Positions 9,049-24,448 of a stretch of 50,457 nucleotides of DNA are shown here, one piece after another. The stretch is taken from the NCBI RefSeq assembly GCF_009900765.1, contig NZ_JAAABL010000028.1, forward strand, positions 1 to 50,457, given 5' to 3'. Numbering within the stretch: the first letter of the stretch is position 1; every line of letters begins with the position of its first letter. A program made the translations under genes and the position numbers. The DNA comes from Rhodovarius lipocyclicus. GTDB taxonomy: Bacteria > Pseudomonadota > Alphaproteobacteria > Acetobacterales > Acetobacteraceae. Below the pieces are notes generated by a model. That model searched no databases and was not told the DNA's origin. It was given only the letters and a program-made list of their open reading frames with translations.

Positions 9049-11288
9049 ACCACATCGCCCCGTTCCGGCAGGCCATCCAGGCGCTTTCCGAGGGCCGGCC
9101 CAGGGAAGCCCTGCCCTGGCTGCGGCAGTCGATCGCGGAGGCCGATGAGCCGGAGCTGGCCGGGCTGAACCTGGGCATGGCCCTGGCCGACCTGGGCGAG
9201 TTCGGAGAGGCCGAACCCCTGCTGCTCCGCGCGGCCCAGGAATTGCGGCATCTGGCGGAGCCGCATTTCCGCCTGGGCCGCATCGCCGCCCAGCGCATGC
9301 GCATCGCCGAGGCGCGGCAGCATTTCGACACCGCCCTGGCCGTGGAACCCGACCATGTGATGAGCCTGGTGGGCCTGGCCATGCTGGAGGAAGCGGCGGG
9401 CCACCCGCATGAGGCGCTGGCCCTGCTGGACCACGCCGCCCTGCTGGCCCCGCGCGACGAGCACATCGCCCTGTTCCGCCTGCGCTGCCAGGCTGCGACC
9501 CGCGAACCCCAGGCGGCGATGGAAATCGCCCTGGCGCTGCTGGCCCATGGCCAGGGCGGGGTGGAGAATGCGCGCCTGGCCGCCAGCCTGCTGCCCCCGG
9601 CCGAGGCCCTGCCGAAGCTGGAGGCGGGCGCGGCCAACCAGCCGGTGAACTGGCTCTGGAGCTTCGCCATCGCCCTGGCCCAGCATGCCGCCGGCGCCAC
9701 GGAGGATGCGGTGGCCAGCCTGCGCCTGGCCAGCCTGCTGTCCGACGGCGCGCCGGCCGTGGCGGGGGAGTTGGGCATGCGCCTGGCCGACCTGCGCCGC
9801 CATACGGAGGCCGAGCCCCATCTGGCCGCCGCCGCGCGCGGCCTGCCGACCGATCCGGGCTTCCGCAGCCAGCACGGCATCACCCTGTTCAAGCTGCACC
9901 GCTTCGCGGAATGCCGCGCCGTGCTGGAAGCCGCGATCCGCGATTTCGGCCCCCTGCCCGCGCTGCTGGGCAATCTGGCCCTGGCGCTGAACGCCCAGGG
10001 CGCGCAGCAGGAGGCCCTGGCCACCGCCCGGCGCAACCCCGGGAATGTGGCGGGGCTGGCGAACCAGCTGGGCGTGCAGCCCTATCACCCGCGGGAAGGC
10101 TCCGCCGCCGCGCTGGCCGCCACCGCCCGCGCGCTGGGCGCGCTGCTGCCCCAGCCCAGCCTGCCGCCGCACCCGCGTGGCTTCGCGCCCGAACGGCGGC
10201 TGCGCGTGGGCTTCCTGTCCAGCCATTTCGCCCGCCACCCGGTGGGCTGGCTGACGCTGGCGGGCATCGAGGCCCTGCCGCGCGACGAGATCGAGGTGGT
10301 GTGCTTTTCCCTGCGCCCCAACACGGATGCGCTGGCGCGGCGCTTCCACGACACCGCCGATCTGTGGCGCGAATTGCCGAAGCTGGACGACGCCGACCTG
10401 GTCGAGGCGATCCGCGCCGACGCGCCCGATATCCTGGTGGATCTGGGCGGGCATGGCGAAGGCGGGCGCGTGGCCGCCCTGGCCCATCGCGCCGCGCCCG
10501 TGCAGGTGAAATGGGTGGGCGCGCAAAGCTGCTCCACCGGCGTGCCCGCGATGGACTGGATGCTGACCGACGCGCGCGAAACGCCCCCGGGCAGCGAGGC
10601 CCATTACACCGAGCGCCTGCTGAGCCTGCCCGATGGCTATGTGTGCTACGCTCCGCCCGCTTGGGCGCCCGCGGTGGGTCCCCTGCCCGCGCTGGCCCGC
10701 GGCCACATCACCTTCGGCTGCTTCAACAACATGGCCAAGATCACGCCCGAGGCCCTGCGCGCCTGGGCCGCGATCCTGAACGCCGTGCCGGGCAGCCGGC
10801 TGGTGCTGCGCACCCACGCCCTGGCCGATGCCGAAACCCGCGCCCTGGTGCTGGCCCGCGCCGCCGCCTGCGGCCTGGACCCCGCGCGCATCGAGACCCA
10901 CGGCCCGGTGCCGCATGAGGAATTGCTCGCAGCCTACAACGACATCGACCTGGCGCTGGAGCCCTTCCCCTATGCCGGGGGGCTGACCGCCTGCGAGGCG
11001 CTGTACATGGGCGTGCCGCTGGTGGCGCTGGCGGGCAGCAGCTTCGCCGGGCGCCACGCGGTATCGCACCTGACCAATGTGGGCCTGCCGGACTGGATCA
11101 CGGACAGCACGCCCGCCTATATCGCCCGCGCCATCGCCGCCTGCCGGGATGTCCCGGCCCTGGCCGCGCTGCGGGCCGGGCTGCGGGCACGGGTGGCGGC
11201 GTCACCGCTGATGGATGCGCCGCGCTTCGGGCGGAACCTGGCGGATGCGCTGCGGCGGGCCTGGCGGGAGAGGTGCCTGGAAGGGTAG
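9045..11288 (+). CDS. TPR-GT41 (O-GlcNAc-transferase-like) glycosyltransferase, candidate flagellin glycosyltransferase
   Basis: The 747-residue protein has TPR-like helical repeats over residues 1-330 and a GT41 domain over about 380-740. Seen in the catalytic part are LRVGFLSSHFARHPVGW near residue 385, DILVDLGGHGEGGR, VKWVGAQSCSTGVPAMDWML, FGCFNNMAKITPEAL, and FPYAGGLTACEALYMGVP near residue 640, where GT41 enzymes bind the nucleotide sugar. The same layout occurs in Caulobacter FlmG, which recognises flagellin through its TPRs and adds a nonulosonic acid. Being co-translated behind flagellin and flaF, this is probably the flagellin glycosyltransferase; the donor sugar is unknown and no sugar biosynthesis genes lie in the window. 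Confidence 0.88.
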   Translation: MNHIAPFRQAIQALSEGRPREALPWLRQSIAEADEPELAGLNLGMALADLGEFGEAEPLLLRAAQELRHLAEPHFRLGRIAAQRMRIAEARQHFDTALAVEPDHVMSLVGLAMLEEAAGHPHEALALLDHAALLAPRDEHIALFRLRCQAATREPQAAMEIALALLAHGQGGVENARLAASLLPPAEALPKLEAGAANQPVNWLWSFAIALAQHAAGATEDAVASLRLASLLSDGAPAVAGELGMRLADLRRHTEAEPHLAAAARGLPTDPGFRSQHGITLFKLHRFAECRAVLEAAIRDFGPLPALLGNLALALNAQGAQQEALATARRNPGNVAGLANQLGVQPYHPREGSAAALAATARALGALLPQPSLPPHPRGFAPERRLRVGFLSSHFARHPVGWLTLAGIEALPRDEIEVVCFSLRPNTDALARRFHDTADLWRELPKLDDADLVEAIRADAPDILVDLGGHGEGGRVAALAHRAAPVQVKWVGAQSCSTGVPAMDWMLTDARETPPGSEAHYTERLLSLPDGYVCYAPPAWAPAVGPLPALARGHITFGCFNNMAKITPEALRAWAAILNAVPGSRLVLRTHALADAETRALVLARAAACGLDPARIETHGPVPHEELLAAYNDIDLALEPFPYAGGLTACEALYMGVPLVALAGSSFAGRHAVSHLTNVGLPDWITDSTPAYIARAIAACRDVPALAALRAGLRARVAASPLMDAPRFGRNLADALRRAWRERCLEG

Positions 11289-11403
11289 TGTCCTGCCCGC
11301 GAAGTTCGCGGGATCTCCCGCGAACGAAGCGGATCAGCAGGCCGCTGAAAACCATGGCTCGTGGCCTGAGAACGAAATCCGGGAGATTTCGGAATCAGGA
11401 CAC
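11288..11403. repeat. 116-bp inverted-repeat (MITE-like) element
   Basis: The segment is bounded by GTGTCCTG (11288-11295) and its exact reverse complement CAGGACAC (11396-11403). Inside are a CCCGCGAA/TTCGCGGG hairpin at about 11297-11312 and GGGAGAT-containing words repeated in inverse orientation. It exactly fills the gap between two convergent genes, starting in the last base of the glycosyltransferase stop codon and ending 4 bases before the Anbu stop. It might be a small non-autonomous transposable element or a two-way terminator. No clear target duplication is visible. Confidence 0.5.
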
Positions 11404-11407
11404 GAGA

Positions 11408-12139
11408 TCACCCCCACTCCGGCGACGGCAGCCCCACCAGCGCCGAGCGCAGCGCCCCCGACCACCCCGCCCGCACCATGGAAAAATACGAGTCATCCTC
11501 ATTGATCCGCCGCCAGCGCCCGATATGCAGGCTGTCGCGGTCCATCGTCAGCAGGTCCAGCGGCATGCCCACGGTCAGGTTCGATCGCAGCGTGCTGTCC
11601 ATGCTGACCAGCGCCAGCTTCACGCCATCCATCATCGGCGTTTGCCAGCCCAGCGCCCGGTCCAGGATGGGCTTGCCGTATTTGTGCTCGCCGATCTGCA
11701 GGAAGGGCGTGTCCTGGGTCGCCTCGATGAAATTGCCGGCGGCGTAGACCAGGAACAGGCGCGGCGCCTCGGTGCCGATCTGCCCGCCCAGCAGGAAGCT
11801 GGCGTCGAACACCACGCCCTGGGCCGCCAGATCCTTGCCGTCGGCCTCGTACACCTCCCGCACCGCGGCTCCCAGCAGGCGCGCGGCCTGGAACATGTTG
11901 GGCACGTCGGTCAGCTTCTGCCGGCGCCCGTCCAGCGCAACGCCTTCCTGCAGATAGCCCCAAGTGGCCTGGGTGATGGCCAGATTGCCGGCGGTGGTCA
12001 CGCAGATCACCCGCTCGCCCGGCACCTCCAGCACCTGCATCTTGGAAAAGGTGCTGATGTTATCCACCCCAGCATTGGTGCGGGTGTCGGACAGCATGAC
12101 CAGCCCGTGTTCCAGATTCAGGCCCAGGCAATAGGTCAC
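11408..12139 (-). CDS. Anbu-type proteasome-like peptidase
   Basis: The 243-residue product starts (M)TYCLGLNLEHGLVMLSDT and continues RTNAGVDNISTFSKM, the hallmark N-terminus of Anbu (ancestral beta subunit, COG3484), an Ntn-hydrolase relative of proteasome beta subunits and HslV, with the nucleophile Thr right after the initiator. FLLGGQIG and LALVSMDSTLRSNLTVG fit the fold. The start is GTG at 12139, overlapping the alpha-E stop as GTGA; the longer upstream frame is a shadow of the alpha-E gene. Anbu is usually encoded with ATP-grasp, alpha-E and transglutaminase genes. The first two are directly upstream, the transglutaminase is absent. The substrate is unknown. Confidence 0.9.
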   Translation of the reverse strand: MTYCLGLNLEHGLVMLSDTRTNAGVDNISTFSKMQVLEVPGERVICVTTAGNLAITQATWGYLQEGVALDGRRQKLTDVPNMFQAARLLGAAVREVYEADGKDLAAQGVVFDASFLLGGQIGTEAPRLFLVYAAGNFIEATQDTPFLQIGEHKYGKPILDRALGWQTPMMDGVKLALVSMDSTLRSNLTVGMPLDLLTMDRDSLHIGRWRRINEDDSYFSMVRAGWSGALRSALVGLPSPEWG

Positions 12140-13077
12140 GGCTCGGCCACCTGGATGTAGAAGCGCTCGATTTCCTGGCCCAGGGATGCCGTGTGCTCGA
12201 TCACCCGGGTCAGGAATTCGTGCAGGCCTTCCTCCAGGATGGCCTCGATGCGGCCATAGGCCAGGCGCGCGTGCAGTTCGCCCGCCATGCGGTGGCATTC
12301 GCCCCGCCGCCCGCCCTGGTCGGCGGAGATCGCGTCCAGCTGCTCCTTCACCCGGGCGAAGCTGGCCACCAGGCTGCGCGGCAGTTCGGGGCGCAGGATG
12401 ATGAGTTCCGCGATGCGCGTGGGGTCCAGCCGGTCCCGGTACACCCATTGATAGGCCCGGGTGGCGGAGACGGAGGCCAGCACCGCCTGCCATTGCGCGT
12501 ATTCCGTGGCGGCGCTGCCCGAGAGCATGGCGTGGCGCACATCCAGCAGCCGGGCGGAATTGTCTGCCCGTTCCAGCGCGGTGCCGATCTGCACGAAGCG
12601 CCAGGCCTCATCGCGCAGCATGGTGTCGGTGGCGGCGCCGTTGCACAGCAGCACGCGCTCCCGCACCCATTCCAGGAAGCCGGCCAGCGCCTCGCCACTG
12701 GTCTCGGCGGGGGTCATGCGGCGCAGCAGGTTCCAGGTGTCATTGATGGCGCCCCACATGTCCACGGTCAGCGCCGTGCGCACGGTGCGGGCGTTGTTCC
12801 GCGCCGCCGCGATGCAGGAGAAGATGGAGGAAGGGTTGTCCCGGTCGCGGACGATCCAGTCCACCACCGCCTCTGGCGTCACGCCGGGGTGCTTGTCGAG
12901 GAAGCCGGCCTCCCCGCCGCTGGCGGTCAGGATGCCGTGCCATTCGGCGCTCTCATCCTCCAGCGCGACGGAAAGCGAGGCCATGCGCCCCGCGACACCC
13001 AGGCCGCGGGCGAGGTTGGCCGCGCGCTCAGTGTAGCGGGCCATCCAGAACAGGCTGTCTGCGGTGCGGCTCAGCAT
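12136..13077 (-). CDS. Alpha-E domain protein (COG2307)
   Basis: The 313-residue protein begins MLSRTADSLFWMARYTERAA, the standard opening of alpha-E proteins, and is mostly amphipathic helix. Such proteins accompany the circularly permuted ATP-grasp of the preceding gene and are predicted to help it form amide bonds on peptides or proteins. The ATG at 13077 overlaps the ATP-grasp stop (13071-13073) and its own TGA overlaps the Anbu GTG, so the three genes form one translationally coupled operon. Confidence 0.92.
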   Translation of the reverse strand: MLSRTADSLFWMARYTERAANLARGLGVAGRMASLSVALEDESAEWHGILTASGGEAGFLDKHPGVTPEAVVDWIVRDRDNPSSIFSCIAAARNNARTVRTALTVDMWGAINDTWNLLRRMTPAETSGEALAGFLEWVRERVLLCNGAATDTMLRDEAWRFVQIGTALERADNSARLLDVRHAMLSGSAATEYAQWQAVLASVSATRAYQWVYRDRLDPTRIAELIILRPELPRSLVASFARVKEQLDAISADQGGRRGECHRMAGELHARLAYGRIEAILEEGLHEFLTRVIEHTASLGQEIERFYIQVAEP

Positions 13078-14561
13078 CCCAGGCTGTCCTCCTGGGTCTG
13101 TGTCTGACTTTGGGCTTGCCCCATGGGCGCATGCGGCCGGGATGGGCCGTCCTCCAGCACCCAGGTGTCCTTGGTGCCGCCGCCCTGGCTGGAATTCACC
13201 ACCAGCGACCCCTCCCGCAGGGCCACGCGCGTCAGGCCCCCGGGCACGATCGAGATCTCATTGCGGCCGAACAGGATGAAGGGGCGCAGATCCACATGGC
13301 GCGGCGCGATGCCGGTATCCGTCACGGTCGGCACGGTCGAGAGCGCGAGAGTGGGCTGGGCAATGTAGTCGCCGGGCTTTTCGGCGATGCGGCGGGCGAA
13401 TTCGGCGCGCATCGCCTCATCCGCGTGCGGGCCGATCATCATGCCATAGCCGCCCGACCCGCGCGCCAGCTTCACCACCAGCTTGTCGAGGTTGGAGAGC
13501 ACCTCCGCCCGGTCCGCCTCGCGCTCGCACAGATAGGTGGGCACATTGCCGAGCTTCGGTTCCTCATCGAGGTAGAAGCGCACCATGTCCGGCACATAGG
13601 GGTAGATGGCCTTGTCATCCGCGATGCCGGCGCCGGGCGCGTTGGCCAGGGTGACGTTGCCGGCCTTGTAGGCGCGCATCAGCCCCGGTACGCCCACCAG
13701 GCTATCCTTGCGGAACACCTCGGGGTCCAGGAAATCGTCGTCGATGCGGCGATAGATGACATCCACGCGCTGCGGCCCCCGGGTGGTGCGCATGAACACC
13801 ACATCGTCGTCGCTGACGAACAGGTCCGCGCCCTCCACGACCTCCACGCCCATCTCATCGGCCAGGAAGCAGTGCTCGTAATAGGCGCTGTTGTAGCTGC
13901 CGGGCGTCAGCACGACCACGGTGGGGTCGAGGCCCGCGCGCTCCGGCGCCACGGATTTCAGCGTGGACAGCAGGTGCTCGGGATAGCGGGAGACAGGGGC
14001 CAGCCGGTGCCGGGCGCACAGGCGCGGGAACAGGCGCAGCATCGCCTCCCGGTTCTCCAGCATGTAGGAGACACCGGAGGGCGTGCGGCAATTGTCCTCC
14101 AGCACGTAGAAGGCGTCGGGGCCGGTGCGCACCATGTCGATGCCGCTGATGTGGGTGTAGATCCCGCCCGGTGGCGTGAAACCCATCATGGCGGGCTGGA
14201 ACGCCTCATTCTCCAGCACCAGCGCGGAGGGGACGATGCCCTCCTTCAGAATCCGCTGCTCGCCATAGACATCCAGCATGAAGGCGTTCAGCGCCCGCAC
14301 CCGCTGCTCCAGCCCCGCCGAGAGCGATTTCCACTCACTGGCCGCGATCAGCCGGGGGATGATGTCGAAGGGAATGAGCCGCTCGGGATCGCCGCCTTCG
14401 CCATAGACGGCGAAGGTGATGCCGAGCCGGCGGAACAGCAGTTCCGCCTCGGCACTCTTGCGTTTCAGGGCATCGAGCGGGGTCCGCTCGATCCAGGCGC
14501 GGATCTCGGCATAGGTGGCCGCGGCCACCGCGCCGTCCCGCATCTCATCAAAGGCGGTCAA
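13071..14561 (-). CDS. Circularly permuted ATP-grasp protein (COG2308)
   Basis: The protein (496 residues from the TTG at 14561) matches the permuted ATP-grasp family: LIPFDIIPRLIAASEWKSL, ALNAFMLDVYGEQRILKEG, VLEDNCRTPSGVSYMLENR, then DPTVVVLTPGSYNSAYYEH and, near the end, KLARGSGGYGMMIGPHAD. These enzymes use ATP to activate a carboxylate for ligation to an amine; the substrate here is unknown. The start is uncertain: TTG at 14561 has GGGGAGAAGA just upstream, and the next ATG is at 14543. It leads the ATP-grasp, alpha-E, Anbu operon, and the promoter should lie in 14562-14688, divergent from the TPP enzyme gene. Confidence 0.92.
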   Translation of the reverse strand: MTAFDEMRDGAVAAATYAEIRAWIERTPLDALKRKSAEAELLFRRLGITFAVYGEGGDPERLIPFDIIPRLIAASEWKSLSAGLEQRVRALNAFMLDVYGEQRILKEGIVPSALVLENEAFQPAMMGFTPPGGIYTHISGIDMVRTGPDAFYVLEDNCRTPSGVSYMLENREAMLRLFPRLCARHRLAPVSRYPEHLLSTLKSVAPERAGLDPTVVVLTPGSYNSAYYEHCFLADEMGVEVVEGADLFVSDDDVVFMRTTRGPQRVDVIYRRIDDDFLDPEVFRKDSLVGVPGLMRAYKAGNVTLANAPGAGIADDKAIYPYVPDMVRFYLDEEPKLGNVPTYLCEREADRAEVLSNLDKLVVKLARGSGGYGMMIGPHADEAMRAEFARRIAEKPGDYIAQPTLALSTVPTVTDTGIAPRHVDLRPFILFGRNEISIVPGGLTRVALREGSLVVNSSQGGGTKDTWVLEDGPSRPHAPMGQAQSQTQTQEDSLGC

Positions 14562-14688
14562 GCTCTTCTCCCCGTATCCTGCCCTCAGCAGGCCATGGGC
14601 GGGGCCGCAAGGCAAGCGGGGCGGGTGGCCAAGCCGCTCATGTCGCTGCACTCTCTGCCTAGTCCATAAGCACAAGGGGGAACGGCCG

Positions 14689-16284
14689 ATGAATGGAGCC
14701 GAGGTGGTGGTGCGTGCGCTGCACGAGGCTGGGGCGCGCGCCCTGTTCGGTGTGCCCGGGGGCGGCAGCAGCCTGGACCTGATGGCGGCGGCACGCGGCG
14801 TGGGCATGCCCTTTCACCTGGCGCGCACGGAAACCGGGGCCGCGATCATGGCGGGCGCGGTGGCGGAGCTGTCGGGCGCGCCCTGCCCGGTGCTGACCAC
14901 GCGCGGGCCCGGCGTTTCCTGCGTCACCAACGGCATCGCCAATGCCAGCCTGGAGCGCGCGCCGGTGGTGCTGCTGGCCGATGGCTTCACGGCGCGCGAG
15001 CGCACCTTCGCCTGCCATCAGTTCGTGGACCACGCGGCCCTGCTGCGGCCGGTGACCAAGGCGCAGCTGCGCGCCGATGGCCAGGCGGGGGTGGCCATCC
15101 AGGCCGCGATCGCGGCGAGCCTGGCGGCCCCGCGCGGCCCCGTGCTGCTGGAACTGACCGGTGAGGCCGCCCAGGCCGAATCGGCGCCCGCCCCCGCCTT
15201 CACCCCGGCGCCGCCGCGCGCGCCGGAAGCCGCGGCCCTGGCGGCCGCCCAGGCGCTGCTGGCCGGCGCGAAGCGCCCGGCGATCATCGTGGGGCTGGAG
15301 GCCATCCCCCACGCCGCCCCCCTGCGCGCCCTGGCCCGCGCCCTGCGCTGCCCGGTGCTGGTCACCTACAAGGCCAAGGGCGTGTTCCCGGATGCGGACC
15401 CGCTGTTCGGCGGCGTCTTCACCGGCGGCGCGGCGGAGGTGCCGATCCTGGCCGAGGCCGACCTGATCCTCCTGGCGGGGGCCGACCCGATGGAATGGGT
15501 GCCCCAGCCCTGGAAATTCCAGGCCCCGGTCATCGACATCGCGGCCTGCCCGCGCAGCCCGCACTACCTGGTGCCCGCCGCCACGCTGGAAGGCGATGTG
15601 GGGCTGGCGCTGGCCGCCCTTGCCGGGGCCCCGGGCACATGGACCGAGGCTGCCATCGCCGCCCATCGCGCCGCCTGGCTGGCGGCGCTGTCCAACGGGC
15701 CCTCGGGCAACCGGGGCATCTCGCCCCAGGCGCTGGTCGAGATCACCCAGGCCGCCTGCCGCGCCGCCGCCGCCAACCCGCGCGTGGCGGTGGATGCTGG
15801 CGCCCACATGTTCCCCAGCACCACCTTCTGGCAGGCCAGCGAACCGGGCGACCTGCTGATCTCCAACGGGCTGGCCACCATGGGCTTCGCGCTGCCGGCC
15901 GCGATCGGGGCCGCGCTGTACGACCCCGCGCGCGGGGCCATCGCCTTCACCGGCGATGGCGGGCTGCTGATGTGCCTGGGCGAGCTGGCCACCGCGACCA
16001 CGCTGAAGGCCAATATCCTGGTCATGGTGTTCAACGACGCGACGCTGAGCCTGATCGACATCAAGAAGGGCGGGCGCGCCCTGCCGCCGGGCGGGCTCGA
16101 TTGGCCGAGCGCCGATTTCGCCACGCTGATGCAGACGCTGGGCGGCACCGCCTGGCACGCCCATGACGACGCCAGCCTGCGCCGGGCGCTGGACGAGGCA
16201 CTGGCCGCCACCGGGCCCCGGCTGATCGATGCGCGGACGGATCCGGGGAGCTATCCGGCGCAGATCAAGGCGTTGCGGGGGTAG
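14689..16284 (+). CDS. Thiamine-diphosphate-dependent enzyme of the acetolactate synthase / benzoylformate decarboxylase type
   Basis: The 531-residue product has the three-domain layout of this superfamily. The N-terminal PYR domain includes FGVPGGGSSLDLM and the likely activating Glu48 in ARTETGAAIMAGAVAELSG. A middle domain follows, then a C-terminal PP domain with GDGGLLMCLGELATATTL near residue 422 and VFNDATLSLIDIKKGG, the GDG-N thiamine-diphosphate/Mg2+ motif. Substrate cannot be read from the sequence; a 2-oxoacid decarboxylase, synthase or lyase are all possible. No small regulatory subunit is adjacent, so a biosynthetic AHAS is unlikely. The convergent neighbour is a tricarboxylate-type binding protein. 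Confidence 0.88.
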   Translation: MNGAEVVVRALHEAGARALFGVPGGGSSLDLMAAARGVGMPFHLARTETGAAIMAGAVAELSGAPCPVLTTRGPGVSCVTNGIANASLERAPVVLLADGFTARERTFACHQFVDHAALLRPVTKAQLRADGQAGVAIQAAIAASLAAPRGPVLLELTGEAAQAESAPAPAFTPAPPRAPEAAALAAAQALLAGAKRPAIIVGLEAIPHAAPLRALARALRCPVLVTYKAKGVFPDADPLFGGVFTGGAAEVPILAEADLILLAGADPMEWVPQPWKFQAPVIDIAACPRSPHYLVPAATLEGDVGLALAALAGAPGTWTEAAIAAHRAAWLAALSNGPSGNRGISPQALVEITQAACRAAAANPRVAVDAGAHMFPSTTFWQASEPGDLLISNGLATMGFALPAAIGAALYDPARGAIAFTGDGGLLMCLGELATATTLKANILVMVFNDATLSLIDIKKGGRALPPGGLDWPSADFATLMQTLGGTAWHAHDDASLRRALDEALAATGPRLIDARTDPGSYPAQIKALRG

Positions 16285-16290
16285 CACGGC

Positions 16291-16309
16291 GCGGGGGCCA
16301 AGCCCCCGC
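16291..16309. terminator. Hairpin between convergent genes
   Basis: GCGGGGGC (16291-16298) and GCCCCCGC (16302-16309) form a perfect eight-base-pair stem with a three-base loop in the 27-base gap between convergent genes. There is no long T-run on either side, so termination efficiency is uncertain. Confidence 0.5.
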
Positions 16310-16311
16310 CT

Positions 16312-17268
16312 TCACTGCGCCTCGAAATTCACGCTGCGCAGCAATTGCGTGTTCCGGGCCTCATCCTGGCGGATATAGGCATCGAAGGCCGCCGCGTCCT
16401 CGTCCACCGGCTCGAAGGCCAGCGCGGTCAGGCGCTGCAGCACGTCGGGTTCGCGCATGCCCTCGTTCAGCGCGCTGTTCATGCGCGCGACCAGGGCGGG
16501 GGCCATGCCCTTCGGCCCCCACACCCCATACCAGGAATGGAAGACGAAGCCGGGCATGCCGGCTTCCTCCATGGTCGGGATCTCGGGGGCGGCGGGGATG
16601 CGGGTGCCATTGGTGATGGCCAGCGCCCGCAACTGCCCGCCGCGCACCATGGGCAGCGGCGCCAGCACCGGGTCGAACATCAGGGAAATGTTGCCCGCCA
16701 TCACATCCGTCAGCCCGGCCGAGGAGCTGCGCTGCGGCACCATCAGGATATCGGCCCGCGCCGCCTGGCCGAAGGCGATGGCCGCCAGATGCCCGGCCGA
16801 CCCCAGCGATGAGGTGGTGAAGGTCCAGTCCCGCGGGTTGGCATGGGTGGCCGCCGCCAGTTCGGCCACATTGCGCGGGGCGCGGCGGGGGTCGATCACG
16901 AACAGCAGCGGGCCCCGGGCCGTGCGGGCGATGGGCGTCATGTCGTTGATCGGGTCGAAGGGGATGCCGCGCAGCACCCGGTGCAGCAGCGCCTGGATGG
17001 AGGCCGAGGCCATGATGGTCAGCCCATCCGGCTGGGACTGGATCAGCGCCATGCCGCCCACCACCCCATTGCCACCCGAACGGTTCTCCACCACCACGGT
17101 CTGGCCCAGCTTTTCCTGCAGTTTCCCGGCGGCGATGCGGCTCAGCGCATCGGTGGCGCCGCCGGGGGGAAAGGGCACGATCATGCGGATCGGCCGCAGG
17201 GATTGCGCCGTCACCAGCCCCGGCGCGGCCAGCAGCCCGGCGGAGAGGATGACGGCGCGGCGGCGCAT
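16312..17268 (-). CDS. Bug/TctC-family tripartite tricarboxylate transporter binding protein
   Basis: The 318-residue periplasmic protein has an N-terminal export signal (RRRAVILSAGLLAAPGLVTA) and the family's first block IRMIVPFPPGGATDALSRIA, followed by VVENRSGGNGVVGG. Bug proteins capture small organic acids or related compounds for TctAB permeases, but most are orphans, and no tctA/tctB is visible here. Its ATG overlaps the stop of the upstream NTF2-like gene (ATGA at 17266-17270 on the minus strand), so the two are co-translated and may serve the same compound. Confidence 0.93.
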   Translation of the reverse strand: MRRRAVILSAGLLAAPGLVTAQSLRPIRMIVPFPPGGATDALSRIAAGKLQEKLGQTVVVENRSGGNGVVGGMALIQSQPDGLTIMASASIQALLHRVLRGIPFDPINDMTPIARTARGPLLFVIDPRRAPRNVAELAAATHANPRDWTFTTSSLGSAGHLAAIAFGQAARADILMVPQRSSSAGLTDVMAGNISLMFDPVLAPLPMVRGGQLRALAITNGTRIPAAPEIPTMEEAGMPGFVFHSWYGVWGPKGMAPALVARMNSALNEGMREPDVLQRLTALAFEPVDEDAAAFDAYIRQDEARNTQLLRSVNFEAQ

Positions 17269-17732
17269 CAGCGCGCGATCACCGGACGGTTGCCATAGCT
17301 TTCCTGCGGCACGCCGCGTTCCAGCGACATGTGGCTGTGCACGCCCACCCAGCCGTCGCCGCTTTTCAGCAGCACGATGCTGGCCCGGCCCGGCCGCTCG
17401 AACGGCGTGCCGTCGGGGTTGTAGCCGGTACTGTCCCAGGGGGTGATGGCGATGGCCATCTGGCCGTCGGGGCTGGCCAGCACGCGCGTCTGGTCATGGA
17501 TGAAGCTGAAGCCGGAGGTCTTGGGCCACACGCTGTCCCACTGGCGGTCGCGCCAGTCCCACAGCCCCTCCAGCACGCGCTTGTGGGTGCCGAAGGCCAG
17601 GGCCTGCTCATGCCAGAAGGGATAGGCGCTTTTGTAGTCCACCGCCTGCACGCAGGCGGCGAAGCGGTCCAGCCAATCCAGGATCTCGGCACGCAGTTCG
17701 GGGCTGGCTTCAGGCAAGGCGGGAATCGTCAC
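17268..17732 (-). CDS. NTF2-like / SnoaL-like domain protein
   Basis: The 154-residue product has the pattern of the cone-shaped NTF2 fold: an N-terminal helix (ELRAEILDWLDRFAACV), then strands such as FSFIHDQTRVLASPDGQMAI and RASIVLLKSGDGWVGVHSHM. Such domains bind small molecules or act as isomerases or hydratases; no reaction is assigned. The GTG at 17732 is chosen; another in-frame GTG at 17744 is possible. It is translationally coupled to the downstream Bug-type binding protein and divergent from the SDR gene at 17839. Confidence 0.75.
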   Translation of the reverse strand: MTIPALPEASPELRAEILDWLDRFAACVQAVDYKSAYPFWHEQALAFGTHKRVLEGLWDWRDRQWDSVWPKTSGFSFIHDQTRVLASPDGQMAIAITPWDSTGYNPDGTPFERPGRASIVLLKSGDGWVGVHSHMSLERGVPQESYGNRPVIAR

Positions 17733-17838
17733 GGTCAGTCTCACTCCGGTGTCAGGAACCGGAAAGCTACGGCGCCCCCCTTGCGGCGCGCAAGCGAGCA
17801 GGCAGGATTGTATACAGATCCATGTCCCGGAGTAGCTG

Positions 17839-18594
17839 ATGACTGACCGCCCCCGCGTCTTCCTGGTGACCGGCGCCGCCTCCGGCATTGGTGCCGCATG
17901 CTGCCGCGCCATGGCGGCCCCCGGCACCGCCTTCCTGGTCCATACCCGCAAGAACGAGGAAGGCGCCGAGCGCACCGCCGAGGCGATCCGCGCCCGCGGC
18001 GGCCAGGCCGTGGTCGCCCTGGGCGATATCGGCGCGCCGGAAATCCCGGCCGCCCTGGTCCAGCAGGCCATCGCGGCCTTCGGCGGGCTGGACGTGGTGG
18101 TGGCCAATGCCGGCTTCGCCGACCGCACCCCCCTGCTCTCCCTGACCGATGAGGCCATCACCCGCAGCCTGGATACCATCCTGTGGGGCTTCATCCGCCT
18201 GGCGCGCGCCGCCGCCACGCCGCTGGCCGCCAGCGAGGCCGGGCGGCTGATCGGCATCTCCTCCTTCGTGGCGCATGTGTTCCGGCCGGATGTGACGACC
18301 TTCCCCGCCACCGCCGCCGCCAAGGGCGCGCTGGAGGCCACGCTGCGCGCCATCGCCATCGAACTGGCGCCCAACGGCACCACCGTGAACGCCGTCGCCC
18401 CCGGCTTCACCCAGAAGGACGCCGGCAGCCACACCGCCATGACGCCCGAACAGTGGAAAGCCATCGCGGCTCGCATCCCCCTCGGGCGCCTGGGCACGCC
18501 GGACGACGTGGCCCAGGCCGTGGCCTTCCTGGCCTCGCCAGGCGCCGCCTACATCACCGGACAACTGCTGCACGTGAACGGCGGCCTGGTCTGA
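17839..18594 (+). CDS. SDR-family protein with altered catalytic site
   Basis: The 251-residue protein has the classical SDR nucleotide-binding motif TGAASGIGAACC near residues 12-23, NAG in VVVANAGFADR, the serine region IGISSFVAHVF, and the C-terminal VNAVAPGF and GQLLHVNGGLV. The usual YxxxK is replaced by TAAAK (in FPATAAAKGALEATL), so the catalytic Tyr is Thr while the Lys is kept. It may therefore be a poor oxidoreductase, a binding protein, or may use another residue. A 106-base gap separates it from the divergent NTF2-like gene. Confidence 0.88.
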   Translation: MTDRPRVFLVTGAASGIGAACCRAMAAPGTAFLVHTRKNEEGAERTAEAIRARGGQAVVALGDIGAPEIPAALVQQAIAAFGGLDVVVANAGFADRTPLLSLTDEAITRSLDTILWGFIRLARAAATPLAASEAGRLIGISSFVAHVFRPDVTTFPATAAAKGALEATLRAIAIELAPNGTTVNAVAPGFTQKDAGSHTAMTPEQWKAIAARIPLGRLGTPDDVAQAVAFLASPGAAYITGQLLHVNGGLV

Positions 18595-18649
18595 ACCAGA
18601 CCTGGGGAGCCCGCGGGGAAAGTTAGGCCCGGTGAGAGGGTGGTATACG

Positions 18650-18870
18650 AGAGGGCTCCGCCCTCTCGAGCTCTCCCGCCAGGAGCCGAAAGGCCCCTGG
18701 ACCCCATCAGTTTAAGTTGGAAGTTTGGGGAGGGGGCACAAAGCGCCTTCCCGGCCAGACGACCTGTCGGTGCCCCCTCCCCAAACTTCCAATTAATTGG
18801 GTTCCAAGGGCCTTTCGGCCTTTGGTGGGGGGAGCGCGAGGGGGGCAAAGCCCCTCTCGCACGCCGCCCT
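18650..18870 (+). repeat. Palindromic intergenic repeat, copy 2, with long-stem core
   Basis: The region between the SDR and the binding protein is built of stems. GAGAGGGC/GCCCTCTC lies at about 18652-18668. A perfect 23-base inverted repeat joins 18717-18739 with 18770-18792, with a 30-base loop. The module at 18798-18820 is identical over 23 bases to copies 3 and 4, and a GAGGGG/CCCCTC stem follows at 18838-18866. I see no coding function. The core differs from that of copies 3 and 4 but sits in the same place between the same kind of flanks. Confidence 0.8.
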
Positions 18871-18882
18871 GCCCACCCGCAC

Positions 18883-20466
18883 CTACCCTCTCCGCAGGTT
18901 CCACAGGAACGGGTTCGGGCCTTGCAGCACGTCCTGCAGGTCCCGGCGGAAGGCGGTGCGCAGGCGGAACACGCCGGTGGGGGCGATCGGCACCGCGTCC
19001 CAGGCGAGTTCCTGCAGGCGTTGCATGGCCTGATTCTGGCCGGCGGTGTCCGGGGCATCGATCCAGGCCTGCACCTGGGCTTCCACGGCCGGGTCGTCGG
19101 GCCAGCCGGGCCAGGCCTGGGCGCCGTTCATGCGGATCACCCAGCTGACAGCGGGGTTGGCGATGGTGGCGGCCGGGGCGTTGGTGTTGTGCAGGTTCCA
19201 GCCGCCTTGCGGCCCGGGTGCGCGGTTGGCGCGGCGGGCGAGCGTGCTGGCCCAGTCGCTCTCCACCGCCTGGATGTTCACGCCCAGGCGCCGCATCAGC
19301 TCCACGGTGATGCGCCCCTGCTGGGTCACGGCGGGGAAGTCGGTGGGGTTGATGTGGATGATGGGCTCGCCGTTGTAGCCGGCATCCCGCAGGGCGGCGC
19401 GGGCCGCGTCCATCGCGGCGGCGGCGCCGACGGCGGGGGGGAATTCCGTGGCACCGGGCAGGCCGCAGGGGAACATGGAGTGGCATTCCTGCCAGTCCTG
19501 CGGCAGGGCCACGGCCTGCATGAAATCGGGCTGCACGATCGCGTCGCGGATGGCGCGGCGCACGCGCGCGTCGTCGAAGGGCGCGTGCAGGTGGTTGAAG
19601 CGCAGGAAGCCCAGGAAGCCGTTGGGGTCGTAGATCTGGGTGCGGGTGTTGCGGTCGCGGTCCAGCACCGGCACCAGGTCCGGCAGCGGGTATTCCACCC
19701 AGTCGATCTCGCCGGTGCGCAGGGCGGCGGCGGCGGTGCCGCCATCGGGGATCCAGAGCAGTTCCAGCCGGTCGAAATGCACGCGCTTGCCGCCGCTGGC
19801 GGCCTCGGCGGGTTCGTCGCGGGGGGTATAGGCCTCGTTGCGGAGATAGACGGATTTGCTGCCCTGCACATATTCGCTGGCGACGAAGCGCCAGGGGCCG
19901 CTGCCGATCATCTGGTCGGGGCCGAGCGCGCGGTCGCCGGGCGTGCTGGCGAAGCGCTCGGGCATCATGAAGCAGGGCGAGGCGCCGGGCTTGGCCAGCG
20001 CGTCGAACAGCGCCGGAAACGGCCGGCGCAGGCGGAACTGGATGGTGTGGTCGTCGGGGGCCAAGAGATCCTCGGTGGCGCGCATCAGAACGGCGCCGAA
20101 GCCGTCGCGGCTGGCCCAGCGGCGGATGCTGGCCACGCAATCGGCGGCGCGCACGGGTTCGCCATCGTGCCAGCGCAGGCCATCGCGCAGGCGGATCAGC
20201 ACGCGCAGGCCATTGTCCTCGATGCGGTGGCCCTCGGCCATCTGCGGGTGGGCGCGCAGGGCGCGGTCGGCGCCGTACAGCGTGTCGAACACGCAATAGC
20301 CGTGGGTGGTGATGATGGTGCTGGGGTTGAAGATGGGGTCCAGCACCGCGAGTGCGGCCTGCGGCATGAAGCGCAGGGTGCGGGCGCGTGGCGCCGCACC
20401 TTGGCCCCAGGCCGCGGGCGCGGCCAGCATGGCGGGGCCCGCCCCGAGCAGTGAACGGCGCAGCAT
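18883..20466 (-). CDS. ABC transporter substrate-binding protein, family 5 (peptide/nickel type), under TPP riboswitch control
   Basis: The 527-residue protein has a twin-arginine-like signal (MLRRSLLGAGPAMLAAPAA) and the family-5 pattern: LAVLDPIFNPSTI, then MAEGHRIEDNGLRVLIRLRD, LRWHDGEPVRAADCVASIRR, and IGSGPWRFVASEYVQGSKS. It would bind a solute in the periplasm. Family 5 usually handles peptides, nickel or opines, but the thiamine diphosphate riboswitch directly upstream points to thiamine, its phosphates or a precursor as ligand. No permease or ATPase gene is adjacent, so it must work with a distant transporter. AGGGAGGAAG is a strong ribosome site just before the ATG. Confidence 0.9.
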   Translation of the reverse strand: MLRRSLLGAGPAMLAAPAAWGQGAAPRARTLRFMPQAALAVLDPIFNPSTIITTHGYCVFDTLYGADRALRAHPQMAEGHRIEDNGLRVLIRLRDGLRWHDGEPVRAADCVASIRRWASRDGFGAVLMRATEDLLAPDDHTIQFRLRRPFPALFDALAKPGASPCFMMPERFASTPGDRALGPDQMIGSGPWRFVASEYVQGSKSVYLRNEAYTPRDEPAEAASGGKRVHFDRLELLWIPDGGTAAAALRTGEIDWVEYPLPDLVPVLDRDRNTRTQIYDPNGFLGFLRFNHLHAPFDDARVRRAIRDAIVQPDFMQAVALPQDWQECHSMFPCGLPGATEFPPAVGAAAAMDAARAALRDAGYNGEPIIHINPTDFPAVTQQGRITVELMRRLGVNIQAVESDWASTLARRANRAPGPQGGWNLHNTNAPAATIANPAVSWVIRMNGAQAWPGWPDDPAVEAQVQAWIDAPDTAGQNQAMQRLQELAWDAVPIAPTGVFRLRTAFRRDLQDVLQGPNPFLWNLRRG

Positions 20467-20473
20467 CGCGCTT

Positions 20474-20497
20474 CCTCCCTAAAACCGGCGCGGGAGG
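20474..20497 (-). promoter_or_regulatory. Predicted ribosome-site sequestering hairpin (expression platform)
   Basis: In the leader RNA, CCUCCC (20497-20492) can pair with the ribosome site GGGAGG (20479-20474) across a 12-base loop. The G-rich 3' strand of the TPP aptamer could compete for the C-rich arm, so ligand binding may decide whether the ribosome site is free. This pairing is my reading of the sequence and has not been folded computationally. Confidence 0.55.
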
Positions 20498-20518
20498 GGC
20501 GGTTCGTGGCGGCCGCTG

Positions 20519-20615
20519 CGTCCCCATCCCTCCGCCGGTGCGAACCGGATCAGGTTCCGCGGGTCGCGGGGAAGAACCCGCCTCTCAGCCCTTCATCGGG
20601 CTCCCCGTGGTGACG
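20519..20615 (-). ncRNA. TPP (THI-box) riboswitch
   Basis: Read on the minus strand, the RNA has the conserved thi-box blocks in order: ACGGGGAGCCC, GGGCUGAGAG, ACCCGCGGAACCUGAUC, CGGUUCGCACCGGCGGAGGGA. The CUGAGA and ACCUGAUC blocks are those that bind the pyrimidine and diphosphate of TPP. A closing stem can form between CGUCACC (20615-20609) and GGGGACG (20525-20519) with one mismatch. The aptamer ends 53 bases before the ATG of the binding-protein gene at 20466. Confidence 0.95.
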
Positions 20616-20639
20616 GTGCGATTGTGCTTGGGCGGCCCA

Positions 20640-20667: not shown

Positions 20668-21858
<1,191 letters not shown>

Positions 21859-21902
21859 AGGTTTATTTCCATCCAGAAGGGCAGGGTTTCGCAGCGAATG
21901 CT

Positions 21903-22252: not shown

Positions 22253-24448
22253 ATGTCCGGTACCACTGGTCCGTCTTCCAGCCAGGCTGCCTATCTGATC
22301 GGGCAGCAGCCCAATGTGCGGTTCATGTCCATCATCACCGCGGGCGATACCGCGGCCGGCGGCGCGGCCACCGGCTTCGCCGGCGTGCCCGACGGGCTCG
22401 GCGCCTTCGACAATGGCGACGGCACCGTCACCATCCTGGTGAACCATGAGATCGGGAACACCGCGGGCGTCGTCCGCGCCCATGGTTTCAAGGGCTCCTA
22501 TGTCGATCAGATCGAGCTGAACAAGGCGGACCTGTCCGTCGTCTCCATGACCGACCTGGCCACCGGCCTGCACCTGTGGGACAGCGCCAGCACCAGCTAT
22601 GTGCTGGCCACGGCCGGGGCCTCGGGCATCGCGGGCCAGGGCGCGCTGGCGCGGCTGTGCTCGGCCGACCTGCCCTCCGTCTCGGCCTTCTACAACGCGA
22701 CCAGCGGCCTCGGCACGCAGGACCGCATCTTCATGAACGGCGAGGAAACCGGCGCCGAGGGCCGCGCCCTCGCCTGGATCGTGACGGGCACCGAGGCCCA
22801 CCAGGCCTTTGAGCTGCCGCGCCTGGGCAACACCTCCTTCGAGAACCTGCTGGCCCGCCCGGTCGCCAGCGACAAGACCGTGGTCATCGGCACCGACGAC
22901 AGCACCGGCGGCCAGGTCTATGTCTATATTGGCGACAAGCAGGCCACCGGCAGCGCGATCGAGAAGGCGGGCCTGACCAACGGCCAGCTGTTCGGCATCA
23001 AGGCCAGCTTCGCGGCCGAGACCACCTCCGGCCCCACCAGCGGCACCTTCACCCTGGCGGCGCTGGGCGATGTCAGCGCCATGAACGGCGCGCAGCTGGA
23101 AACCGCGAGCGCCGCCGCCGGCGTCACCACCTTCCTGCGGCCCGAGGACGGCGCCTGGGACACGGTGAACCCGAACCGCTTCTATTTCCAGACGACGGAC
23201 GCGATCAACCAGCCCTCCCGCCTGTGGGCGCTGGATTTCGTCGACCCCACGGACCCGACCAAGGGCGGCACCATCACCGCCGTGCTGGACGGTACCGAGG
23301 GCCAGCAGATGCTGGACAACATGGCCGTGACGGCGGGCGGCGGCTTCGTGCCCGCCGGCACCACCATCAACCAGGAGGATACAGGCAACAACATCCGCAC
23401 CGGCCGCGTCTATGCCTATGACGTGACCAGCGACCAGTTGAGCCTGATCGCCAAGCACAACCCGGCCCTGTTCGGCGACGACAACAACGTCGTCACCGCG
23501 CCCTTCACGGTCGATGACGAGACCTCCGGCGTCATCGACGTCACCTCCCTGTTCGGCAACGCCAACACCAGCGCCTATCTGATCGTCAGCCAGGCGCATT
23601 ACGGCATCGCCACCCCCGGCATCGTCGAGGGCGGCCAGCTGCAGATCATGTATGTGGACCGCCCCATGAACGGCGGCGCGGGCGCCGACACGGTGCGCGG
23701 CAGCTGGTATTCCGAGGCGCTGGGCGCGGGCGCCGGCAACGACACGATGCTGGGCGGCGACGGCCATGACCAGCTGTTCGGCGAGGCGGGCGACGACGCC
23801 ATCGACGGCGGCGCGGGCAACGACACGCTGTATGGCGGCGCCGGCAACGACGCGATGACCGGCGGCACCGGCGACGACCGCTACCTGATCGAGGACGCGG
23901 GCGACACGGTGGTCGAGGCCGCGGGCGGCGGCAACGACACGCTGTTCGTCGCGGTCAGCGGCTGGCAGGCGCCGGCCAATGTCGAGACGGTCTATCTGGT
24001 GGGCAACGCCGTCAGCGCCTCCGCCCTCGGGGCGGTCACCATGGTGGCGAATGCCAGCCTGGGCAGCAGCCTGACCGGCGGCACGGGCGCGGACACGCTG
24101 TGGGGCCAGGCGGGCAACGACACGCTGAACGGCGGCCAGGGCGCCGATGTGCTGCGCGGCCAGGGCGGCGACGACATCCTGGTGGGCGGCGCGGGCAACG
24201 ACCAGCTGGTGGGCGGCGCGGGCGCCGACACCTTCACCTACAACGCCCCCGGCTGGGGCTATGACCAGATCTTCGACTTCGTCCGCGCCGAGGGCGACAA
24301 GATCGACCTGCGCGGGTCCGGCGTGACCAGCTTCGCGGGGCTGACGGTGCAGGTGATCGGGGACAGCACCGCCATCATCGTCGGCGCCGACCGCATCGAC
24401 GTGTATGGCGTGTCGAACCTGGTGGCGGGCGACTTCATCTTCGCCTGA
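22253..24448 (+). CDS. PhoX-like beta-propeller protein with C-terminal RTX repeats, probably type I secreted
   Basis: The 731-residue protein has no N-terminal signal. Residues 1-470 resemble the PhoX/DUF839 propeller of calcium-dependent alkaline phosphatases: VTILVNHEIGNTAGVVRAHG, IFMNGEETGAEGRALAW, and FLRPEDGAWDT, which carries the typical RPED. Residues about 475-570 and 615-665 contain repeated GGxGxDxLx nonapeptides (GGAGNDTLYGGAGNDAMTGG), which bind calcium and mark type I secretion substrates. The likely role is an extracellular phosphatase or phosphodiesterase. AGGAGGT is a strong ribosome site. No secretion ABC genes are nearby. Confidence 0.88.
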   Translation: MSGTTGPSSSQAAYLIGQQPNVRFMSIITAGDTAAGGAATGFAGVPDGLGAFDNGDGTVTILVNHEIGNTAGVVRAHGFKGSYVDQIELNKADLSVVSMTDLATGLHLWDSASTSYVLATAGASGIAGQGALARLCSADLPSVSAFYNATSGLGTQDRIFMNGEETGAEGRALAWIVTGTEAHQAFELPRLGNTSFENLLARPVASDKTVVIGTDDSTGGQVYVYIGDKQATGSAIEKAGLTNGQLFGIKASFAAETTSGPTSGTFTLAALGDVSAMNGAQLETASAAAGVTTFLRPEDGAWDTVNPNRFYFQTTDAINQPSRLWALDFVDPTDPTKGGTITAVLDGTEGQQMLDNMAVTAGGGFVPAGTTINQEDTGNNIRTGRVYAYDVTSDQLSLIAKHNPALFGDDNNVVTAPFTVDDETSGVIDVTSLFGNANTSAYLIVSQAHYGIATPGIVEGGQLQIMYVDRPMNGGAGADTVRGSWYSEALGAGAGNDTMLGGDGHDQLFGEAGDDAIDGGAGNDTLYGGAGNDAMTGGTGDDRYLIEDAGDTVVEAAGGGNDTLFVAVSGWQAPANVETVYLVGNAVSASALGAVTMVANASLGSSLTGGTGADTLWGQAGNDTLNGGQGADVLRGQGGDDILVGGAGNDQLVGGAGADTFTYNAPGWGYDQIFDFVRAEGDKIDLRGSGVTSFAGLTVQVIGDSTAIIVGADRIDVYGVSNLVAGDFIFA

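Follow-up and report, generated by a model that had tools for sequence, protein, structure and literature searches.

Why would a TPP riboswitch precede a lone gene for a family-5 solute-binding protein, and which solute would such a protein capture? The question arises from a stretch of 50,457 bases of Rhodovarius lipocyclicus DNA, here called the window. A first-pass annotation had read a TPP-responsive leader at 20519-20615 on the minus strand. The Rfam scan confirmed this element: the TPP riboswitch family RF00059 matched at 20510-20617(-) with 65.7 bits (cut-off: 54.3 bits; E 9.3e-11) over model positions 1-105 of 105. It was the sole match at gathering level in the window, and the whole-genome scan returned the same place.

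We examined the aptamer fold in an alignment of 23 sites, comprising 13 sites before the orphan binding-protein gene (that of the window included) and 10 other TPP sites. Scored against the RNAalifold consensus of that same alignment, a choice that favours the structure, 95.3% of the cells were paired and 11 of 26 pairs had changed on both sides. None of 500 shuffles reached either measure, and slid versions were lower every time. A chance match was ruled out by the score, by recurrence of the element before orthologues (described below) and by its absence from five paralogue loci, which contained no TPP match at gathering score. We conclude that 20510-20617(-) is, by sequence and fold, a real TPP riboswitch belonging to RF00059, for which TPP binding and a change in expression are predicted.

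The gene behind the aptamer (18883-20466, minus strand) encodes an extracellular solute-binding protein (SBP) of 527 residues with an N-terminal RRSLL signal-like sequence. Sequence and fold both place the protein in family 5. It matched PF00496 (SBP_bac_5) at E 5.3e-56 and no other Pfam family at E 0.001, and the closest folds to its structure model (pTM 0.86) were receptors of the family-5 type such as 8vdx, NikA and DppA. We know of no function or ligand for 8vdx, a family-5 binding protein of Bordetella bronchiseptica. The best fold matches also include AapF with the signal HEHEAA as well as sialic-acid and opine receptors, which indicates that family 5 can bind small non-peptides. None of the NCBIfam equivalog cut-offs for DppA, OppA, NikA and GsiB was reached; GsiB came best with 62.3 bits (cut-off: 594), NikA scored 53 (cut-off: 393) and DppA 33 (cut-off: 1005). 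TIGR01254 (ThiB) was absent from the nine NCBIfam matches of the SBP at E 0.001, and PF09084 (ThiY and NMT1-like proteins) gave no Pfam match at the same threshold. The proposal that the receptor differs from ThiB and ThiY thus held at the level of sequence family. The source genome contains 47 matches to the SBP at E ≤1e-5, itself included, and the nearest other shares 48% identity. When 66 orthologues (G119 left out) were compared with 25 paralogues, 29 orthologue-specific positions were found.

We searched 397 genomes of the same family (Acetobacteraceae; 102 genera) for orthologues at a threshold of E ≤1e-165 and obtained 68 matches in 67 genomes of 13 genera, with two in G198. The 67 orthologues formed one clade (SH-aLRT 100), and the second G198 match grouped with four outgroup paralogues. 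Like the Rfam match itself, retention of the riboswitch upstream of orthologues had been set beforehand as a check on the annotation, and both checks were passed: 56 of the 67 have a same-strand TPP site at a distance of 42-242 bases upstream. Forty-nine of these sites exceeded the Rfam cut-off and the other seven were weaker (35.6-53.4 bits). The 11 orthologues without a site came from genus g61 (seven), genus g25 (three) and G119. A search for decayed riboswitch remnants with filters off, covering nine loci (six of the seven g61 genomes, G238, G119 and the G198 paralogue), gave a best E of 0.39. The G119 orthologue (L143, G119:C1:66500-70500, positions 823-2318) is split into two pieces that overlap but differ in frame; its genome has ThiC, and the orthologue is either a decayed gene or an assembly error.

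In a second locus set, drawn from named genomes, which includes Rhodovarius, Neoroseomonas, Roseococcus, Rubritepida, Siccirubricoccus and Roseomonas, the clade-trained model R1 detected a TPP site in 68 of 80 loci, a count less independent than those from Rfam because R1 was partly built from leaders of this clade. Two of the 12 loci without an R1 site (L194 and L211) start at a contig edge. Taken together, the sequence data indicate a real and conserved regulon in which a TPP riboswitch, with a predicted response to TPP, serves one gene, that of an orphan family-5 receptor.

The next called minus-strand gene downstream of the SBP lies past an opposite-strand gene (17839-18594), so the SBP gene is very probably monocistronic and stands alone as a transcription unit. 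Upstream, a phosphoglycerate kinase gene (20668-21867, minus strand) ends about 50 bases before the aptamer and belongs to the context rather than to the unit. Just past the SBP stop there is an inverted repeat at 18717-18792 with arms of some 23 bases each (18792-18770 and 18739-18717, matched by eye), possibly a terminator or a mobile repeat. The four neighbours scanned with Pfam (a TPP-dependent enzyme, TctC, SDR and phosphoglycerate kinase) included no permease; beyond these genes, the scan covered part of the window.

The same picture emerged across the 80 loci. With one tblastn query, a DppB-type permease was detected within 10 kb on each side in two loci, both times more than 5 kb away; tblastn over the same range found a DppC-type permease in one locus and a Dpp-type ATPase in five. 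A co-located permease was also rejected by a set of eight neighbour queries, none of which was near more than 39 of the 80 loci (altronate dehydratase: 39; TauD: 18; metallo-beta-lactamase fold: 12; TRAP DctM: 6), and the neighbours of the SBP differ between genera. An ABC importer operon, with permease and ATPase beside the SBP, was therefore not the arrangement found, and the initial description of an orphan family-5 binding protein without a permease was borne out.

Forty-three bases separate the aptamer end from the ATG of the SBP gene, and the Shine-Dalgarno sequence GGGAGG (20474-20479, minus strand) lies in between. The element CCTCCC at 20497-20492 is complementary to it (20479-20474) and is the proposed anti-Shine-Dalgarno. 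The hairpin that had been proposed at 20474-20497 can form: the two elements paired with a probability of 0.92-0.93 when the aptamer helices were enforced in folding. In the free fold this pairing had a probability of 0.00, yet the Shine-Dalgarno was paired elsewhere in the very GC-rich leader. Neither the whole leader (z −0.12) nor the hairpin stretch (z 0.42) folded better than shuffled sequences.

We compared 57 leaders, namely those of 56 of the 68 loci with a site and the window's own; the 12 loci left out were mostly near-identical Roseomonas MAGs. After three leaders without a recognisable Shine-Dalgarno had been dropped, at least five complementary anti-Shine-Dalgarno bases were found upstream of the Shine-Dalgarno in 42 of 54. 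The mean run was 5.3, compared with 4.4 in shuffled spacers, a modest excess among related sequences. A conserved pairing between the 3′ strand of the aptamer and the anti-Shine-Dalgarno region was considered and rejected as weak (mean run 5.6 versus 5.0 in shuffled spacers, with the 3′ strand only crudely located in some rows). We infer the direction and the level of control of the SBP gene; judging by the leaders, TPP probably represses translation. The SBP gene would be translated when TPP is scarce, and binding of TPP to the aptamer would free the anti-Shine-Dalgarno, so that the ribosome site would be hidden.

What might the receptor capture? We analysed the thiamine gene content of the 67 genomes with the SBP. 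ThiC, scored as absent where the PF01964 family had no match, was missing in 24 genomes. Twenty-two of these have a completeness of 90% or more and a contamination no higher than 5%, and the set includes G245 and G318, each in about one contig, as well as G347 (two contigs) and G337 (three contigs). ThiE (PF02581) gave a strong match in all 24, and ThiG did so in 23, with a partial match in G008, the ThiG call being made from PF05690, with no ThiG match in NCBIfam for the two proteins tried. Matches to PF03070 in the TenA range occurred in all 24 genomes (one partial), where TenA was separated from PqqC by E-values, by context at a few loci and by three NCBIfam checks: one match at E 1e-50 was PqqC, the TenA-like protein of the source genome scored 114 bits (cut-off: 130) and that of G337 scored 138.9. 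Cells that have lost ThiC and kept ThiG and ThiE need a pyrimidine.

The riboswitch preceded the SBP gene in 24 of 24 genomes without ThiC and in 32 of 43 with it, and all 11 genomes lacking the riboswitch at this place have ThiC. Each of the 43 thiC genes carries a TPP site no more than 1.5 kb upstream, indicating that TPP switches mark thiamine genes in these bacteria. In 23 of the 24 genomes without ThiC, no TPP site was detected besides that before the SBP; the remaining genome, G347, has one more before thiG. Across the 67 genomes, 53 TPP sites were located elsewhere than before the SBP: 43 before thiC, six before thiG, whether or not thiS was called, one before thiM, one before a NitT/TauT-type ABC operon, and two near contig ends where the next gene is unreadable (G169:C319 and G121:C405). 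Co-conserved family-5 permeases under a TPP riboswitch, which the first-pass annotation had suggested looking for, were not seen among these 53 sites. The NitT/TauT-type operon, one example of another TPP-controlled carrier, belongs to G273 (L134, G273:C292, 918-6101) and has a ThiXYZ-like layout: behind a TPP site of 58.0 bits it encodes LuxE-like and LuxC-like enzymes and an NMT1-like binding protein together with the ATPase and permease of an ABC transporter. This genome has ThiC, and its family-5 SBP lacks the riboswitch.

Retention of the riboswitch and loss of thiC were not significantly associated once the tree was taken into account (paired comparison, sign test p 1). Parsimony on the tree gave 10 thiC changes and four riboswitch changes. 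With so few riboswitch changes and this p value, the 24-to-0 split is suggestive and falls short of statistical proof. Presence of the SBP was rejected as a correlate of thiC loss, as 24 of 67 genomes with the SBP and 102 of 330 without it lack thiC; both groups have lost thiC at a similar frequency, so other routes exist.

The first-pass annotation had suggested thiamine, TPP or a degradation product as ligand. Regulation and gene content support a thiamine-related ligand, and loss of ThiC with retention of ThiG and ThiE favours a precursor of the pyrimidine moiety over intact thiamine or TPP. Could the SBP nevertheless bind intact thiamine or its phosphates, which would make it a family-5 counterpart of ThiB? 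Passages of PMC2211319 describe control by TPP as typical for transporters of thiamine, and the slot of ThiB looks empty, as none of the 67 genomes exceeded the TIGR01254 cut-off (among 14 controls, four did so, and the group of E. coli was among the six with signal). We nevertheless regard intact thiamine as an unlikely ligand, because an importer of thiamine would make ThiE and ThiG dispensable, and both are kept in 24 of 24 genomes without ThiC (one partial). Less likely still is a solute unrelated to thiamine, such as a peptide, with the pyrimidine of these genomes entering through another carrier, for example an unregulated ThiY-type system, CytX or ThiV. The solutes of family 5 are very varied, and one genome with both SBP and ThiC has the TPP-controlled NitT/TauT-type operon; against this, only G347 among the 24 genomes without ThiC has a detected TPP site besides that of the SBP.

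Gene content would say nothing about the ligand if genomes without ThiC made HMP with another enzyme, THI5-like or of an unknown type. Our definition of ThiC absence covers the PF01964 family only, and HCCCX4C, which we take to be the THI5 motif, occurred in 11 of the 24 genomes without ThiC; a search of 25 genomes found it 20 times, compared with 11 times in a reversed control. The motif is missing from the remaining 13 of the 24, however; 12 of the 20 occurrences lie in open frames shorter than 100 residues, and the eight frames of at least 100 residues match no Pfam family, NMT1/THI5 included. We therefore consider a replacement enzyme very improbable. The pattern in genomes without ThiC, together with the lack of ThiB over the cut-off and of a THI5-like enzyme by motif, makes the pyrimidine moiety of thiamine, as HMP or as a related pyrimidine compound, the most likely ligand, and we lean towards this assignment on the basis of gene content.

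The source genome (4.59 Mb draft, 98.9% complete) has two detected TPP sites, one before the orphan SBP and one before ThiC, and it contains ThiG (PF05690) and ThiE (by Pfam and also by NCBIfam). Judged by ThiC, ThiG and ThiE, it is able to produce both the pyrimidine and the thiazole itself, and the SBP would be a salvage component. Pyrimidine salvage would likewise be its role in other species with ThiC. In species without ThiC the pyrimidine would arrive via the SBP, and ThiG and ThiE would do the rest. On contig C50 of the source genome (L280, G000:C50), positions 10422-19460 hold three consecutive family-5 SBP paralogues, with Dpp-type permeases and ATPases coming after them. This Dpp-type set is one candidate for a transporter shared by orphan receptors, and sharing of permeases is plausible. 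Both the ligand and the permease partner of the SBP are inferred from genome sequences. Our joint reading is tentative, somewhat short of probable: the SBP clade of Roseomonas-like Acetobacteraceae may be a dedicated receptor for HMP or the pyrimidine of degraded thiamine, switched by TPP as a regulon of one gene and working with a Dpp-type permease that it shares, and possession of it may have allowed repeated loss of ThiC, so that the SBP switch is often the only one detected in a genome.

ThiY is the NMT1/THI5-like protein of a complete ABC transporter. The orphan SBP differs from it in matching PF00496 only and in having no adjacent permease; it would resemble ThiXYZ in that ThiY is a binding protein for a pyrimidine precursor (passages of PMC10881298) and thiXYZ is under THI elements (passages of PMC2211319). 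With ThiBPQ, the transporter of thiamine and TPP, it has in common that a TPP riboswitch precedes the gene of a periplasmic binding protein (for thiB, according to passages of PMC2211319), whereas the SBP family is another and no ThiB passed the cut-off in the 67 genomes. According to passages of PMC11452348, ThiV, with a putative TPP riboswitch, is the HMP importer of SAR11, in which HMP auxotrophs import HMP, a parallel to the role proposed here; ThiV, however, is a sodium:solute symporter and the SBP a binding protein. Thiamine-related carriers named in passages of PMC10881298 are ThiB, ThiT, ThiY, ThiV, CytX, YkoF, ThiPerm and Omr1, and those of PMC2211319 place thiB, omr, thiXYZ and thiV under THI elements. 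A family-5 receptor is not among the thiamine carriers in the passages available from these three sources. A literature search for a TPP riboswitch together with family 5, a peptide ABC transporter or Acetobacteraceae found no such case in mostly open papers, which is no proof of novelty.

If the pyrimidine assignment is correct, the uptake routes known for precursors of vitamin B1 would gain a further binding-protein family, a previously unlisted kind of uptake protein, and a ligand could be given to one of the numerous family-5 receptors of these bacteria. It also predicts that named culturable species without ThiC are pyrimidine auxotrophs.

Two further features were observed in the source genome. 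Its thiC riboswitch (G000:C63:11154-11291; L002, 1501-1638) spans 138 bases and has an enlarged P3 arm compared with its aligned relatives. Within the window, a 731-residue open frame at 22253-24448 carries RTX-type calcium-binding repeats (PF00353) in four stretches.
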